Below, in pieces: positions 2,843 to 51,936 of a stretch of DNA of 64,000 bases. The translations under genes were made by a program, and so were the position numbers. Source of the DNA: Neorhizobium vignae (GTDB lineage Bacteria; Pseudomonadota; Alphaproteobacteria; Rhizobiales; Rhizobiaceae); contig NZ_JNNU01000017.1 in NCBI RefSeq assembly GCF_000732195.1, forward strand, positions 62,001-126,000, in the 5' to 3' direction. Position 1 is the first letter of the stretch, and each line of letters starts with the position of its first letter. The notes under the pieces are model-generated. The model was given only the letters and a program-made list of their open reading frames with translations. It was not told the origin of the DNA and did no database searches.

Positions 2843-3436
2843 GTGACAGTGCCTCTCGTACTTGCCTCCTCCAGCCCCTTCCGCCGGATGCTGATGGAAA
2901 ATGCCGGCCTGGCCTTTGAAAGCCGAGCGGCCGATATCGACGAGCGCAAGATCGAGGCAGGCCTGGAAGGCGCAAGCCCCGACCAGGTGGCACTGACGCT
3001 CGCCAAGGCAAAGGCTTTAGAGGTCAGCGGACATTTCCCGGGTGCTCTGGTGATCGGCTCGGACCAGACCATGTCGCTTGGGAGTCGGGTTTATCACAAG
3101 CCGAAGACCCTTGCTGAAGCGAAAGAAAATCTGCTTTCCCTCTCGAACAAGACCCACCGCCTGAACAGCGCAATCGCTTTTGCGCGTGATAACCAGATCG
3201 TCTGGGAGCATGTCGCGCATGCGGACTTGACCGTCCGCGAGCTGAACGAAACCTTCGTCGATCGCTATCTGTCGCGGGTCGGCGAAAAGGTCTACGGCAG
3301 CGTCGGGGCCTATCAGCTGGAAGGCGAAGGCATCCAGCTCTTTTCGAGGATCGAGGGCGACTATTTCACCATCCTCGGCCTGCCCATGCTGCCTCTTCTC
3401 GAAAAGCTCCGTGACCTGAAAGCGATCGATGACTGA
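2843..3436 (+). CDS. maf: Maf-family nucleotide pyrophosphatase (YceF-like)
   Basis: A 197-residue member of the Maf/YceF family of nucleotide pyrophosphatases, thought to remove modified or non-canonical nucleoside triphosphates. Family marks: LASSSPFRR near the N-terminus, GSDQ at residues 72-75 and a C-terminal [12 protein letters not shown]. The GSDQ form, rather than GADT, points to the YceF (m7GTP) subgroup. I chose GTG at 2843 because GGGAG lies just upstream and it gives the family N-terminus [12 protein letters not shown]; an open frame continues further upstream without support. It overlaps aroE by eight bases. Confidence 0.9.
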
Positions 3437-4289
3437 TTCACGTGAAACATTTTTGGTTAATGCTTTCGTAACCGGGTGGCCGGTGAAGCATTCCCGCTCG
3501 CCGTTGATCCACGGCCACTGGCTGAAGCAGTTCGAAATTGCCGGGACCTACAGGCCTGAGGCCGTGACCGAAGCGGACTTCCCCGCCTTCATCCAATCGC
3601 TGAAGGACGGCAGTTCCGGCTTTCGCGGCGGCAACGTCACTATTCCCCACAAGGAGCTTGCTTTTAAGCTCGCTGATCGGCCGGATGACCTGGCGGAAGA
3701 GCTTGGGGCGTCAAATACGCTCTGGATGGAAGACGGCCTGCTACACGCCACCAATACCGACGGCCACGGCTTTACCGCCAATCTCGACGACCGCCATCCG
3801 GGGTGGGACAACACCGATCGCGCGGTGATCTTCGGCGCCGGTGGTGCGAGCCGCGCCGTCATCCAGGCGATCCGCGATCGCGGCATCGGCGAGATCCACG
3901 TGGTCAACCGCACCGTCGCACGGGCTAGAGAACTTGCCGACCGCTTCGGCGTGAAAGTTCATGCCCATCCGGCCGAAGCGCTGAATGAAGTTATGACCGG
4001 CGCCGGCTTGTTCGTGAACACGACATCGCTCGGCATGGACGGCAGCGAAACGCCTGATATCAATTACTCGCCGCTGGCATCCGGCGCCGTTGTCACCGAT
4101 ATCGTCTACGTACCTTTGAAAACACCGCTGCTGGCCCAGGCCGAGGCGCAGGGTTTCCCGATCGTCGATGGTCTCGGCATGTTGCTGCACCAGGCCGTTC
4201 CCGGTTTCGAAAAATGGTTCGGCCGCCGCCCGGTGGTCGATCAGGCGCTGCGGGATCTTGTCATCGCTGATATGGAAAGACACGGATGA
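3429..4289 (+). CDS. aroE: Shikimate dehydrogenase
   Basis: A 286-residue NADP-dependent enzyme reducing 3-dehydroshikimate to shikimate in aromatic amino acid synthesis. Shikimate-binding HSRSP is at residues 21-25, the catalytic Lys75 in TIPHK, the NTD motif with catalytic Asp111 at 109-111, and the NADP loop GAGGASR at 136-142. The start overlaps the end of maf by eight bases and the stop overlaps coaE as ATGA. Codons 2-7 coincide with a parS-like element (3434-3449), so the extreme N-terminus may be constrained by DNA-level selection. Confidence 0.96.
3434..3449 (+). promoter_or_regulatory. parS-like site A (15/16 to consensus), inside aroE
   Basis: TGATTCACGTGAAACA differs from the canonical ParB target TGTTTCACGTGAAACA at one base. 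It lies within the first codons of aroE, 1.5 kb from the putative oriC. It shares an exact 14-mer, GATTCACGTGAAAC, with four other sites in this window. Confidence 0.75.
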
Positions 4290-9739: not shown

Positions 9740-12178
<2,439 letters not shown>

Positions 12179-12193
12179 CGTTCAAGCTTCGCA

Positions 12194-12229
12194 ACAAAAA
12201 GCGGCGGTCCTCGGGCCGCCGCTTTTTGT
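12194..12229. terminator. Strong bidirectional terminator after gyrB
   Basis: ACAAAAAGCGGCGG (12194-12207) pairs perfectly with CCGCCGCTTTTTGT (12216-12229) across an 8-nt loop, with T-tracts usable in both directions between convergent gyrB and the nitroreductase gene. Confidence 0.92.
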
Positions 12230-12245
12230 TTGTCCAGTTCGAAAA

Positions 12246-12261
12246 TGTTTCACGTGAATCT
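12246..12261 (-). promoter_or_regulatory. parS-like site B1 (14/16)
   Basis: TGTTTCACGTGAATCT; read on the minus strand it contains the exact shared 14-mer GATTCACGTGAAAC. It forms the left arm of an inverted pair with site B2. Confidence 0.75.
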
Positions 12262-12265
12262 TTCC

Positions 12266-12274
12266 TGTGGATAG
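12266..12274 (-). promoter_or_regulatory. DnaA-box-like sequence between two parS-like sites
   Basis: TGTGGATAG, one base from the perfect DnaA box TGTGGATAA, fills the spacer between sites B1 and B2. Confidence 0.45.
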
Positions 12275-12290
12275 GGATTCACGTGAAACA
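12275..12290 (+). promoter_or_regulatory. parS-like site B2 (14/16)
   Basis: GGATTCACGTGAAACA, mismatching the consensus at positions 1 and 3. It is in inverted orientation to B1, 13 bp away, in the gap between convergent genes. Confidence 0.75.
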
Positions 12291-12312: not shown

Positions 12313-12912
12313 TCAGGGCTCCCCTGTGAATTTCCCCTCGAAGGCGATTTCGGAAACCGGCTTGCGCTTGCTGGGGAATTCCCGCTCCGCAAGATCCTCG
12401 GGAAGTGTGCTTCTGTCGGCGATCCGGCCGATCGCAGCCGCTGCCTCGACCCGGTAACCTTCCGGAATCCCGAGCACCTCGACGGCCTTTTCCTTGTCGA
12501 GCCCTTCCATGCCATGTGCATGATAACCGAGCTTCATCGCCTGGCAGATCACCGAAAACCAGGCCGCACCCGTGTCGTAGGAATGGGTATAGGCGAGCCG
12601 GTGTTCGCCGTTGCTGGCCACGCGATAGGTTTTCGAGACGACAATCAGGAGCGCCGCCGCATGCTGCGCCCAGCGCTGGTTACCCGGTACGAGAACATCC
12701 AGGAGCACCGAAAATGACGGCGTTCCGCGTAGCGCATAGATAAAACGCCAAGGCTGGTTGTTGCCGGAGGAGGGCGCCCAATGGGCGGCGTCGAGGATCG
12801 TCAGCATGGTCGCGTGATCGATCGTCTCCTCGGTAAACGCCCTCGGCGACCAGCGGTCGAGGAAGAAGGTATCGATCGGAAACTCCGAATCGCGGGTATT
12901 GCTGCTGGTCAT
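12313..12912 (-). CDS. Nitroreductase family protein
   Basis: A 199-residue FMN-dependent oxidoreductase-like protein of the nitroreductase fold. Near the N-terminus RWSPRAF and AHWAPSSGNNQPWRF (about residues 38-52) form the flavin-binding part; FPSKRKP near the C-terminus is also typical. The natural substrate is unknown. Two start codons are close together; ATG at 12912 has GGAG at ideal spacing, while ATG at 12918 lies only one base from it. An upstream frame continues but without support. It is divergent from the FAA hydrolase gene and convergent with gyrB. Confidence 0.85.
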   Translation of the reverse strand: MTSSNTRDSEFPIDTFFLDRWSPRAFTEETIDHATMLTILDAAHWAPSSGNNQPWRFIYALRGTPSFSVLLDVLVPGNQRWAQHAAALLIVVSKTYRVASNGEHRLAYTHSYDTGAAWFSVICQAMKLGYHAHGMEGLDKEKAVEVLGIPEGYRVEAAAAIGRIADRSTLPEDLAEREFPSKRKPVSEIAFEGKFTGEP

Positions 12913-13065
12913 GGGCATTCTCCGAAATTGCAGGCAGGGATTAGATTTAACATTAACAATAGGCCCGTCGACCTGCTTGGCAACAGACTTCTGGTTGGCA
13001 GAAAACGGGCGTGACAAGCCGGGACGCATGTTCCATAAACCTCCCGGTAAATGGAGGACCATGCT

Positions 13066-16021: not shown

Positions 16022-16037
16022 GGATTCACGTGAAACG
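16022..16037 (+). promoter_or_regulatory. parS-like site C (13/16)
   Basis: GGATTCACGTGAAACG carries the exact shared 14-mer GATTCACGTGAAAC and lies between the DUF2852 stop and its terminator. Confidence 0.65.
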
Positions 16038-26100: not shown

Positions 26101-26649
26101 GTCTTCTTCCGCAGAGGTTGCCGTCAGGAGGGAACGCCGTGCGTCGGCAAGCAGGGCCGAGGCGGCGCGGTCGTCGAGCACGGAAAAATGGCCGGCGACA
26201 TTGGCTTCGAGCGGAAACTGGTGCAGCAGCGCTTCGCAGAAGGCGTGGATGGTCTGGATCTTCAGCCCGCCCGGCGTCTCCAGCGCCTTGGCGAACAGCC
26301 TTCGCGCCTCCGCGAGCTTGAGGGAATCCGGCTCGGCACCTTCGATGCCGGCGATCCTCTTGCGCAGTTCGTCATCGGAAAGCACCGTCCATTCCGAAAG
26401 CCGCTGAAAGACGCGGTTCGACATTTCCGATGCCGCAGCCTTGGTATAGGTGAGGCAGAGGATGGATGAGGGCCGGCAGCCGGCGAGCAGCAGCCGGATC
26501 ACTCGCTGGGTCAGCACATGCGTCTTGCCGGAGCCGGCATTGGCAGAAACCCAGGCGGAACTGACGGGATCGGAGGCGAGCGATTGCTGCACCGTCGTCC
26601 AGTCGATCCACTTGATCGGATCGTCGCCCTCGGGAGCCAGGTCATTCAT
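23101..26649 (-). CDS. addA: Double-strand break repair helicase-nuclease AddA
   Basis: An 1182-residue UvrD-family helicase with a C-terminal RecB-like nuclease, the motor of the AddAB complex that resects double-strand breaks and loads RecA. Walker A ANAGSGKTHV is at residues 36-45; DEAQDTSPIQW is the Walker B/motif II; VGMTRAADRLIVCG is motif VI. The nuclease motif LDYKTN lies near residue 1114. Length fits alphaproteobacterial AddA. ATG at 26649 overlaps the addB stop by eight bases; a longer frame would overlap addB extensively. Confidence 0.95.
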   Translation of the reverse strand: MNDLAPEGDDPIKWIDWTTVQQSLASDPVSSAWVSANAGSGKTHVLTQRVIRLLLAGCRPSSILCLTYTKAAASEMSNRVFQRLSEWTVLSDDELRKRIAGIEGAEPDSLKLAEARRLFAKALETPGGLKIQTIHAFCEALLHQFPLEANVAGHFSVLDDRAASALLADARRSLLTATSAEEDPVLAEAFAHVLDLGDEFGLETLLGDIIAKRTAIRRFIAHAERHGGIGVELKHALGLGPADTEDSIAAGYWPLPGLSGLTLDLYLALADQKGGQKVTDVAYGLRLVAKEPDVLKRAQHLDQIFLTREGKPKADSSLIAKAMTTTAPELADAVATARAHVVTCRDRLRLVRMFLATKAALTLAQRLNDDYEDLKKQRSLLDFEDLIARTADLLTRDGVGAWVHYKLDQGIDHILVDEAQDTSPIQWTVIKSLAEDFYSGASARETRRTIFAVGDEKQSIYSFQGARPERFAEERSETEKRVRASDQAFHSVRLPLSFRSTADVLAAVDQVFSLEENFRGLSALGEPVQHRSNRIGHPGAVDLWDVVVPEVSEQEEDWTAPFDSTPDKAPSAILAGRIANRIEEMIGKETIIEKGVERPIEAGDILVLVRKRDAFVNALTRALKRRDNIPVAGADRLRLTSHIAVQDLLALGRFLLLPQDDLSLAALLKSPLFNLSEEDVFEVAALRAENASAWAQLNRLSEELPLRFRDAADRLQHLLALSRQLSPHDLFARILGAQGGRRKFLGRLGTEAGDILDEFLTFALDHETSGLPGLQAFISTLEIESPEVKREQDGGRNEVRIMTVHASKGLEAPVVFLVDSGSKAFISSHVPKFRLLRIGGEDVPAWVPGKMLTNTMTSADDDRIRTSTEEEYRRLLYVGMTRAADRLIVCGYRGKIDNPDTWQSMISKALAADEHHCSPAEFHGSEGQWGGFKWRLPAAPGQAPKAVHKEAAAADKRPLPTALSRPLPAQKILPRPLSPSGAGTMIDDDADDLIVTSPLFATEQKDSAGLALQKGKLVHRMLQMLTDFPEAERASAARRYADRTARFWPAAEREKLVTSVMSVLSHAELRPVFSQRSQSEVSIMGTLSLEGRDYAISGRIDRLVVTEERVIILDYKTNRVPPKTAEDVPLSHRAQLAIYREILKPLYPAKDFECVLVYTESAQVMSLPSDLLSRSLAELKTK

Positions 26650-30600: not shown

Positions 30601-32112
30601 TTATGATTCGGGCAGTTCTATTCCAGCCCGACGGCACCAATCGCGCAAGGGGCTGAGCACATCGTGCTGAAGCGCCGTCGCGAGATAGCGGAGCGTCCGC
30701 GGCATGTGCTTCAGATAGCCCGGCTTGCCGTCCCGCTGCAAGAGCCGCACCCAGAGACCGGCAAGTTTGCAATTGCGCTGCGCCGCCATGATCGCCCAGG
30801 CTTTCAGGAACGTGGGCTCGTCGAAGGCCCCGAGCGCACGGCGGAGTGTCACGTAATCCAGCATCAGCTGGTCGGCGAGGACCTTCGGGATGTCGACGCG
30901 CGCATCCTGGACGATCGAGGCGAGGTCATAGGCGGTCGGGCCGATCATCGCATCCTGGAAATCGATCAGGCCGACGCGGCGCACGCCCGATTCATGGGGC
31001 CGCCAGATGATGTTCGGCGAATGGAAATCGCGCAGCAGCAGGTTCTTCTCGACGCCGACGAGCTCGCAGACCAGGTTGTCCCAGATCTCCAGGTATTCCT
31101 GCCGTTCCTCGTCGGTCGCCGGCGTGCCGCGCTTCCAGGGCAGGTGCCAGTCGATCAGAAGCCGGGCTTCCATCTTCATCGCCGTCGGATCGAAATCGGG
31201 AATGTGATGGATATGCCCGTCGCCGACCGGCAGGTCCTGGCGCATCTCGTGGCTGTGCAGGAAGGCGAGGCAGACGATGCTCTCCCGGTAGCGCTCGGCG
31301 ATGGGATTGCCGTCTTCGTCGACGGCACCTTCGTCGCCGAGATTTTCGATCAGCAGGATGCCCTGGTCGTAATCCACATGCAGCACTTCCGGTGCCGCCA
31401 GTCCCAGTCCGCGCAGATATTCGTCGATCGCCACGAAGGGGTAGGGGTCTTCGGCGAGATGCGCGACCTTGGGATAGGGTTTTCCGTCGAGAACCGGCGG
31501 GCCTTGCGCCGGGCGCGGCCAGTCCATCAGAATCAGCGTTTCGCCGGTTGCGATCGTCACGCTCTCATAGGCGCGTGTCGAAGCGTCGCCGGTGAGGAAC
31601 CGCCGCCGGGCGCCGGGATAGCCATGGCTGTCGAGGAATTCACGGATCGCCAGCACGCGGCGGATGCGCTGCATCTGCGCGTCCGGTGCGGTGATCGTTG
31701 CGGTCCGGCCGTTGCCGTGCTGTTCGAGCCGGAGCTGGATGCGGGTCTGCGGCAGCAGGTCGTCGGCGACCTCAGGCCATTCCACCAGACAGATGCCGTT
31801 GGAAAGCGCCTCGTCGAAACCAAGCTCGTCCAGCTCGGAGGAATCGCCCAGCCGATAGAGATCGAAATGCGAGACCGGGATCCGCAACTCGTAGCTCTGG
31901 ACCAGCGTGAAAGTCGGGCTCGGCACTTCGAGCTCGCCGTCATCGGCCAGCGCGCGCAAAAAAGCCCGGGCGAAGGTCGATTTGCCGGCTCCGAGATCGC
32001 CGGAAAGGGCAATCCAGTCGCCCTTGTTCAGCGCCAATGCAAAATCCTCGCCGAGGCGGATCGTTTCGGCCTCGTCGGCAAGTGTCAGGGTAAGAGTTGC
32101 CTCACCACTCAT
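30601..32112 (-). CDS. tsaE: TsaE-AmgK-like fusion: tRNA t6A ATPase plus aminoglycoside-phosphotransferase-type kinase
   Basis: A 503-residue two-domain protein. Residues 1 to about 150 are TsaE, the ATPase required for threonylcarbamoyl-adenosine on tRNA; Walker A GDLGAGKST is at 38-46 and SPTFTLVQSYE follows. From about residue 165 to the end is a phosphotransferase of the APH/AmgK type, with the catalytic RDFHSPN motif (Asp362) and DFQDAMIGP. AmgK phosphorylates recycled MurNAc or GlcNAc for MurU, encoded next. The start at ATG 32112 overlaps the divL-like stop as ATGA. Both domains look intact. Confidence 0.9.
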   Translation of the reverse strand: MSGEATLTLTLADEAETIRLGEDFALALNKGDWIALSGDLGAGKSTFARAFLRALADDGELEVPSPTFTLVQSYELRIPVSHFDLYRLGDSSELDELGFDEALSNGICLVEWPEVADDLLPQTRIQLRLEQHGNGRTATITAPDAQMQRIRRVLAIREFLDSHGYPGARRRFLTGDASTRAYESVTIATGETLILMDWPRPAQGPPVLDGKPYPKVAHLAEDPYPFVAIDEYLRGLGLAAPEVLHVDYDQGILLIENLGDEGAVDEDGNPIAERYRESIVCLAFLHSHEMRQDLPVGDGHIHHIPDFDPTAMKMEARLLIDWHLPWKRGTPATDEERQEYLEIWDNLVCELVGVEKNLLLRDFHSPNIIWRPHESGVRRVGLIDFQDAMIGPTAYDLASIVQDARVDIPKVLADQLMLDYVTLRRALGAFDEPTFLKAWAIMAAQRNCKLAGLWVRLLQRDGKPGYLKHMPRTLRYLATALQHDVLSPLRDWCRRAGIELPES

Positions 32113-42357: not shown

Positions 42358-42373
42358 GGATTCACGTGAAACC
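42358..42373 (+). promoter_or_regulatory. parS-like site D (13/16)
   Basis: GGATTCACGTGAAACC, eight bases after the pckA stop; its right end overlaps the pckA terminator stem. It carries the exact shared 14-mer GATTCACGTGAAAC. Confidence 0.65.
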
Positions 42374-51000: not shown

Positions 51001-51936
51001 TTGAAACGCATCCTTCTGGCCCTGATCCTTGTCGTCGCGACATCCGCGGCCTCTTCCGCGTTCGCGGGCGGCCTCACCATGGTTCCCGAGGGAAATCGTC
51101 ACGCGGAACAGCCGAAGGTTCCGGGCGCATCCGTGCGCCGGACCCGCGCCGGGCGCACCACATTCGACGACAAATACGAGAAGATCCGCGATCTCCTGGC
51201 ATCCGACAAGAAGCTGATCGGCAAGATCAAGTCGACGGCCGCCGATTACGGCATCGATCCGATCCACATGATCGGCGCGATCGTCGGCGAGCACACCTAC
51301 AATGTCGATGCCTATGACCGGCTGCAGACCTATTACGTCAAGGCGGCCGCCTATGCGGGCAACAGTTTCCGTTTCGGTTACGGCGACGAGAGCATCCAGC
51401 AGTTCCTCGATCGTCCGGAATTCGGGAAATGCGACGATTTCGCCGATTCCTACAAGCTCTGGTCCTGCCGCGAAGGCGTCTGGGACAAGAGCTTTCGCGG
51501 CCGTTCGGTCGGGGGCACCTCGTTTCCCGACAATCGGTTTAGCGCGGTCTTCTTCCAGCCCTTCTATGCCGGTCAGACTTTCGGCCTCGGCCAGGTCAAC
51601 CCGCTGACGGCGCTGATGCTGTCTGACATGGTGGCCAGGAATTCCGGTTACCCGAAGCTCGACGAAAACAAGGCCGCCGCGGTCTATGACGCGATCATGG
51701 ACCCGGACAAGTCGCTCGCCTATATGGCAGCCAGCATCCGCCGCTCCATCGACGACTACAAGACGATCGCCGGCATGGATATTTCCCGCAACCCCGGCAT
51801 CACCGCGACACTCTACAATACCGGCGGTTCGGCGCAGCGCGCCGCCGCCTTGGCTGCCCGCGGCGGCCTGCCGGAGGAGAATTATTACGGCTGGCTGGTC
51901 AACGAGAAGCTCGCCGAGTTGAAATCCCTCCTCTGA
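51001..51936 (+). CDS. DUF1402 exported protein, possibly lysozyme-like
   Basis: A 311-residue protein with a clear signal peptide (about residues 1-22, ending SSAFA). The mature part resembles DUF1402 proteins. Glu97 in IGAIVGEHTYNVDAYD followed later by GQTFGLGQVNPLTALMLSD is reminiscent of the catalytic Glu and GLMQ-type motifs of lytic transglycosylases, so a peptidoglycan role is possible but unproven. The start is TTG at 51001, which places the signal peptide correctly. It stands alone, 44 bp before the P450 gene. Confidence 0.75.
   Translation: MKRILLALILVVATSAASSAFAGGLTMVPEGNRHAEQPKVPGASVRRTRAGRTTFDDKYEKIRDLLASDKKLIGKIKSTAADYGIDPIHMIGAIVGEHTYNVDAYDRLQTYYVKAAAYAGNSFRFGYGDESIQQFLDRPEFGKCDDFADSYKLWSCREGVWDKSFRGRSVGGTSFPDNRFSAVFFQPFYAGQTFGLGQVNPLTALMLSDMVARNSGYPKLDENKAAAVYDAIMDPDKSLAYMAASIRRSIDDYKTIAGMDISRNPGITATLYNTGGSAQRAAALAARGGLPEENYYGWLVNEKLAELKSLL

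Follow-up and report, generated by a model that had tools for sequence, protein, structure and literature searches.

At positions 12246-12290 of the window, by which we mean the whole 64-kb stretch of DNA analysed here, two parS-like sites stand around a DnaA-like word a short distance behind gyrB. Within the genus Neorhizobium the TGTGG core of this word is under constraint. On balance we favour the view that the composite is a ParB-DnaA element, that is, a site of ParB loading that includes a single conserved box of the DnaA type and would tie origin segregation to DnaA activity.

The composite and its neighbourhood near the presumed oriC

The left parS-like site (TGTTTCACGTGAATCT, 12246-12261, + strand) and the right one (GGATTCACGTGAAACA, 12275-12290, + strand) are apparent in the sequence and in a motif scan; each differs from TGTTTCACGTGAAACA at two positions, and over their 15 inner bases the arms are a perfect inverted repeat. 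The strandless 13-bp spacer between them (ttcctgtggatag, 12262-12274) contains on its - strand, at 12266-12274, the word CTATCCACA (TGTGGATAG on the + strand), one mismatch away from TTATCCACA, which we take to be the DnaA box consensus. These are the two facing sites 13 bp apart and the spacer word one base off a DnaA box that an earlier note on this DNA had described, and the sequence agrees with that description on both points. With up to three mismatches to TGTTTCACGTGAAACA allowed, the window holds five parS-like matches against 0.07 expected, and the genome as a whole has 12 such places, eight of them on the contig of the composite. Two others (one and three mismatches) lie on contig C28 at 26368-26383 and 51352-51367, and perhaps belong to another replicon or arose by chance. 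Across the 64 kb, seven words come within one mismatch of TTATCCACA: the hemE/PPSR gap has three, the spacer one, and three lie elsewhere. Because CTGTGGATA occurs 18 times in the 6.34-Mb genome (its two copies in the window being at oriC and in the composite spacer), about 2e-5 copies would be expected in the spacer by chance, a figure that is post hoc.

The upstream neighbour is gyrB (9740-12178, + strand, stop codon at 12176-12178), which has an NCBIfam match over the cut-off. It is followed at about 12191-12233 (+ strand) by a strong hairpin and a T run, recognized from the sequence and by folding, that we presume to be its terminator. Beyond the composite lies a convergent open reading frame (12313-12915, - strand, start not fixed) that is nitroreductase-like by weak NCBIfam matches below the cut-offs. 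The hemE/PPSR gap (1586-1989, no strand), located by its DnaA boxes and the NCBIfam assignments of hemE and PPSR, is presumably the replication origin, in what we take to be the usual rhizobial gene order; its boxes are TTATCCACA (1807-1815, - strand), TTTTCCACA (1897-1905, - strand) and TTATCAACA (1965-1973, + strand). A profile of base composition gave no abrupt change of skew at this presumed oriC. The main oriC box and the composite are separated by 10.5 kb; the ParB gene lies about 8-9 kb off oriC on the opposite side. GyrB, HemE, PPSR, ParB, RsmG, MnmG and MnmE were confirmed by NCBIfam near the presumed origin, with a ParA-family ATPase between ParB and RsmG. The genome also encodes DnaA and a RAMA-domain protein; we take the RAMA domain to be the C-terminal domain of CcrM-type methylases.

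The window's other parS-like sites, all found by motif scan, are single (3434-3449, 16022-16037 and 42358-42373, each on the + strand). The first of them overlaps the maf stop codon (the TGA of TGATTC) and the aroE start, and its position is kept in most loci read. For the composite arms, the motif is present beyond chance, and oriC, parA and parB lie nearby in the same genome; from the motif and the parB gene we infer that ParB would bind the arms.

Conservation within and beyond Neorhizobium

Our genus sample comprised 57 genomes, in all of which gyrB was found and the DNA downstream of it was read. Single and paired sites were located by the exact core TTCACGTGAA, and the decayed arms in L164 and L172 by eye. 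A facing parS pair lies behind gyrB in 44 of the 57 genomes, with its centres 26-30 bp apart (26 bp in nine, 27 in 16, 28 in one, 29 in 16 and 30 in two), while 12 loci, including the degenerate L158, have one parS site and one locus (L156) has none. The right site is kept, paired or single, in 56 of 57 genomes, once in degenerate form. In many of these genomes the composite follows the gyrB stop by 1-20 nt; in L140 it is intact 709 nt behind gyrB, with about 640 bp of extra DNA in between.

The spacer differs in length to either side of the word, which itself recurs: TGTGG is found in 38 of the 44 pairs, TGTGGA in 34 and TGTGGAT in 31. Eighteen of the 44 spacers come within one mismatch of TTATCCACA, as against none of the flanks scored alongside. 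The six paired loci without TGTGG are L151, L165, L169, L174, L175 and L178. Among the 12 single-site loci, TGTGGAT stands ahead of the remaining site in one (L187), and at other parS sites near gyrB the TGTGG word is rare.

Rates of change were compared on a tree built from gyrB alone for 53 loci, 42 of them paired, leaving out L185 and L187 (in-frame stop codons) and L186 and L188 (truncated gyrB). On the tree of the 42 pairs, each spacer column, with numbering begun at the left site, changed 2-10 times and each right-flank column 12-23 times. The mean number of changes per column was 4.6 in the spacer, 10.0 at fourfold gyrB sites (n = 175) and 17.8 in the right flank (30 columns), the spacer being slower than the fourfold sites (Mann-Whitney, p = 4.6e-5) and than the right flank (p = 1.4e-6). 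The core columns of the arms (14 per arm) showed no changes except for one left-arm column with two. Finding the loci via TTCACGTGAA forces the ten middle columns of every arm to be constant, and information comes from the four core columns per arm that lie outside them. When neutral evolution was simulated at 6.6, 9.1 and 11.3 steps per column, none of 1000 runs produced a 5-mer common to at least 36 of the 42 tips, and at a slow rate of 3.6 steps per column 0.4% of runs matched the observed sharing; the simulation is without indels, its statistic accepts any 5-mer, and the TGTGG word was picked after being seen. The presence of the word among paired loci takes two changes on the gyrB tree, and one further subclade has lost both the left arm and the word. 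The earlier note had named a freely drifting spacer between conserved arms as one outcome that would count against its proposal; within the genus, the retention of TGTGG in 38 of 44 pairs and columns slower than both flank and fourfold sites point the other way. In 17 of 56 loci a TTAA lies close by the right site; it was considered as a further signal and dropped because the right-flank columns are not constrained.

The comparison of gyrB-downstream DNA proposed in the earlier note thus upheld a constrained spacer within the genus but not across Rhizobiales. Among 80 named gyrB loci, three of which hold less than 700 nt behind the stop, a parS site lies within 700 nt of the stop in eight and a facing pair in three, and we reject conservation of the composite across the order on these counts. 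A strict facing pair anywhere in the genome was present in 18 of 394 family genomes. Behind gyrB, the genera outside Neorhizobium in which facing pairs have been found so far are g97 (3/3 loci, 42-43 bp), g106 (3/3, 25 bp) and g107 (1/2, 27 bp). TGTGG occurs in one of these seven spacers (L230) and is missing from the other six; the g106 and g107 spacers carry GTTAA. GTTAA or GTTAAC takes the place of TGTGG between the facing pairs of L222, L223, L225, L254 and, within Neorhizobium, L165. The other-genus sample was drawn from 80 genomes searched, 79 of them with gyrB; 37 of these and three chosen ones made up the 40 loci read, and the facing pairs in seven of the 40 give no frequency because five (G178, G330, G171, G231 and G236) were picked for pairs already seen. 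The more distant genera read lacked parS behind gyrB, except for single sites standing farther away. On a wider gyrB tree, several inner nodes of which are weakly supported, the pair seems to predate the word, whose apparent gain falls at the base of Neorhizobium.

A parS site followed by TGTGGA was matched in 52 of the 394 family genomes, and a hand count of the rows gave 55 matches, 41 of them with a gap of 2-9 nt. The control yielded three matches with the whole pattern reversed and hence with a different core. Because the control core differs and a rough chance estimate is of the same order as the matches, we claim no numerical enrichment, and a general parS-TGTGGA linkage by number was rejected. 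The 25 such loci examined outside the genus fall in the trmE-mnmG gap (12), at mnmG/rsmG (eight), in the hemE/PPSR gap (two), at another known gene (one) and at no reference gene (two). In the trmE-mnmG gap of other Rhizobiaceae genera, parS is followed by TGTGGA within 2-9 nt, often as TCTGTGGAATC (L191, L194-L200, L208, L209, L211 and L212), and L191 has a tandem-oriented parS - TGTGGA - parS there. In L201 and L213, from two other genera, a parS-like core and TGTGGA lie inside the presumed oriC itself, the hemE/PPSR gap.

The spacer word and competing readings

The 38 words in the Neorhizobium spacers comprise CAATCCACA (12), CTATCCACA (10), ATATCCACA (six), TCACCCACA (four), CTGTCCACA (two) and, once each, GTATCCACA, TTCTCCACA, CCATCCACA and AAATCCACA. 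At oriC box A, aligned in 53 genus loci, TTATCCACA is found in 21 and other words in 32, including CTATCCACA (three), ATATCCACA (three), CTGTCCACA (two), CCATCCACA (one) and TTCTCCACA (one), some rows being possibly misaligned. The spacer 9-mer of 20 of the 38 loci is thus also seen at box A in some genome of the genus, and that of the other 18 is not seen there (CAATCCACA 12, TCACCCACA four, GTATCCACA and AAATCCACA one each). At both places the TCCACA end is stable and the first positions vary. This variation fits a moderate DnaA box in the spacer, short of proving it, and it is from the motif and this spectrum of variants that we infer DnaA binding.

Sites of the datA type, which titrate DnaA, contain several clustered DnaA boxes. 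The titration role that the earlier note had also suggested for the composite is implausible because a single box within one mismatch of the consensus is present, the next words being at oriC and at 31370, and we rejected it as the main role.

It is possible, though in our estimate unlikely, that the word is a site for another protein, or an extended ParB contact, with DnaA uninvolved. Constraint falls on TTTCCTGTGGAT and not on the full TTATCCACA, the first three box positions being variable, and the 18 words absent from box A, together with the GTTAA-type spacers at the equivalent place in relatives, are what such a reading would lead one to see. However, the part that stays constant, TGTGGA, is the core of a DnaA box, and the 5' positions that vary are variable in box A too; in addition, the differing lengths to the left and right of the word do not suit a ParB contact that is extended and fixed.

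Slightly less probable is a plain double parS that boosts ParB loading, its word being kept by common descent alone. A pair can evidently exist without the word, since the pairs of relatives have unrelated spacers and some Neorhizobium have lost it. The pace of change in the spacer, slower than at the fourfold sites (p = 4.6e-5) and in the flank (p = 1.4e-6), speaks against descent alone, as do the neutral simulations, which fall short of the observed sharing except at the slow rate.

A terminator or hairpin between convergent genes that merely resembles parS is very improbable, for although the element would form a strong hairpin on either strand and lies 1-20 nt past the gyrB stop in many genomes of the genus, its arms are identical to single parS copies elsewhere, its outer base pair is complementary in only 35 of 44 loci, no constant T run follows it in the 57 loci, and in L140 it sits 709 nt from gyrB. 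We accordingly rejected an intrinsic terminator, for which a GC-rich stem and then a T run would be expected, the stem here being parS; that a terminator scan listed nothing at the composite carries no weight, because it also missed the hairpin behind gyrB.

A proposed coupling and its precedents

Taken as a ParB-DnaA element, the composite would be a chromosomal centromere element in which each of the two facing parS sites could load one ParB dimer, with DnaA expected at one moderate box in the 10-14 bp between them. Because a 9-bp box nearly fills this gap, DnaA and ParB would have to touch or exclude each other, and the geometry suggests either cooperation or competition. How ParB is loaded or released here, close to the origin, would then depend on DnaA activity, and origin segregation would thereby be coupled to initiation, as proposed for Caulobacter. 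By analogy with Caulobacter, a coupling of segregation and replication at the composite would be the likely result, with either direction of effect.

Both arms also contain GANTC, the CcrM site, the left as GAATC (12256-12260) and the right as GATTC (12276-12280), in each case on the side facing the DnaA-type box. We counted GANTC in all TTCACGTGAA cores up to 12 kb before and up to 6 kb behind the gyrB stop of the 57 genus loci: in 173 of 177 cores a single half, and not both, contains GATTC or GAATC, and the remaining four cores lie inside gyrB; in the 40 other-genus loci 45 of 45 cores follow the single-half pattern. These counts are not independent because the sites come from few orthologous loci. 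One core past the counted distance, in L252, has GANTC in both halves. On the gyrB side of oriC, a parS site that stands alone has its GATTC half pointing to oriC. On the other side of oriC in the window genome, GANTC is present in the site at -2851 and absent from those at -4799 and -13926, and many trmE-mnmG parS sites of other genera are without it; the rule of GANTC in one half is limited to the gyrB side of oriC. That the 45 bp form a compact three-way switch for ParB, DnaA and CcrM is a speculative and improbable extension. Fork passage would leave such an element cleared and, because both arms carry GANTC, hemimethylated, and whether DnaA or ParB rebinds first would set the time at which the origin is released for segregation.

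The question addressed here is how origin segregation is timed relative to initiation in bacteria. The natural variants in rhizobia (with the word, without it, and with a single parS) offer a comparative series, and a five-base change in the word could probe ParB-DnaA coupling outside Caulobacter. The analysis also points to parS sites that overlap CcrM sites, in these Rhizobiaceae to one side of the origin.

The idea of ParB-DnaA interplay at a centromere is not wholly new. In Caulobacter crescentus a DnaA-binding site has been described in the parS region (Mera, Kalogeraki and Shapiro 2014, as covered in PMC4468827 and PMC6399470), and according to the reviews, which draw their evidence for DnaA acting at parS from Caulobacter, it is needed for DnaA-dependent origin movement. 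The earlier note knew of no such composite; it had overlooked this precedent. A search of titles and abstract openings in the open-access literature, most subscription papers falling outside its scope, found no facing parS pair around a DnaA box. As in Caulobacter, a putative DnaA site lies at an origin-proximal centromere (there, as reviewed, about 8 kb from the origin), and segregation is proposed to be coupled to DnaA. The Neorhizobium box lies between two facing parS sites behind gyrB, a geometry that the review passages do not describe for Caulobacter; DnaA binding is shown in Caulobacter according to the reviews, whereas for the Neorhizobium composite it is predicted from sequence.

A centromere site embedded with replication-initiator sites is also reported in reviews for rctA/parS2 of Vibrio cholerae chromosome II. 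The association of the two kinds of site is alike, but there the initiator is RctB rather than DnaA, titration is reported, and the sequence is unrelated. Like other chromosomal ParABS systems, Neorhizobium has several parS-like sites gathered near oriC, and parA and parB lie alongside; unlike the usual ones, its pair faces at 26-30 bp with a constrained word between, and its parS is asymmetric, with GATTC in one half. Closest to home, the trmE-mnmG gap of other Rhizobiaceae likewise brings parS and a DnaA-like core together in the vicinity of the origin, but at a different locus and mostly as one parS followed by the word, often TGTGGAATC.
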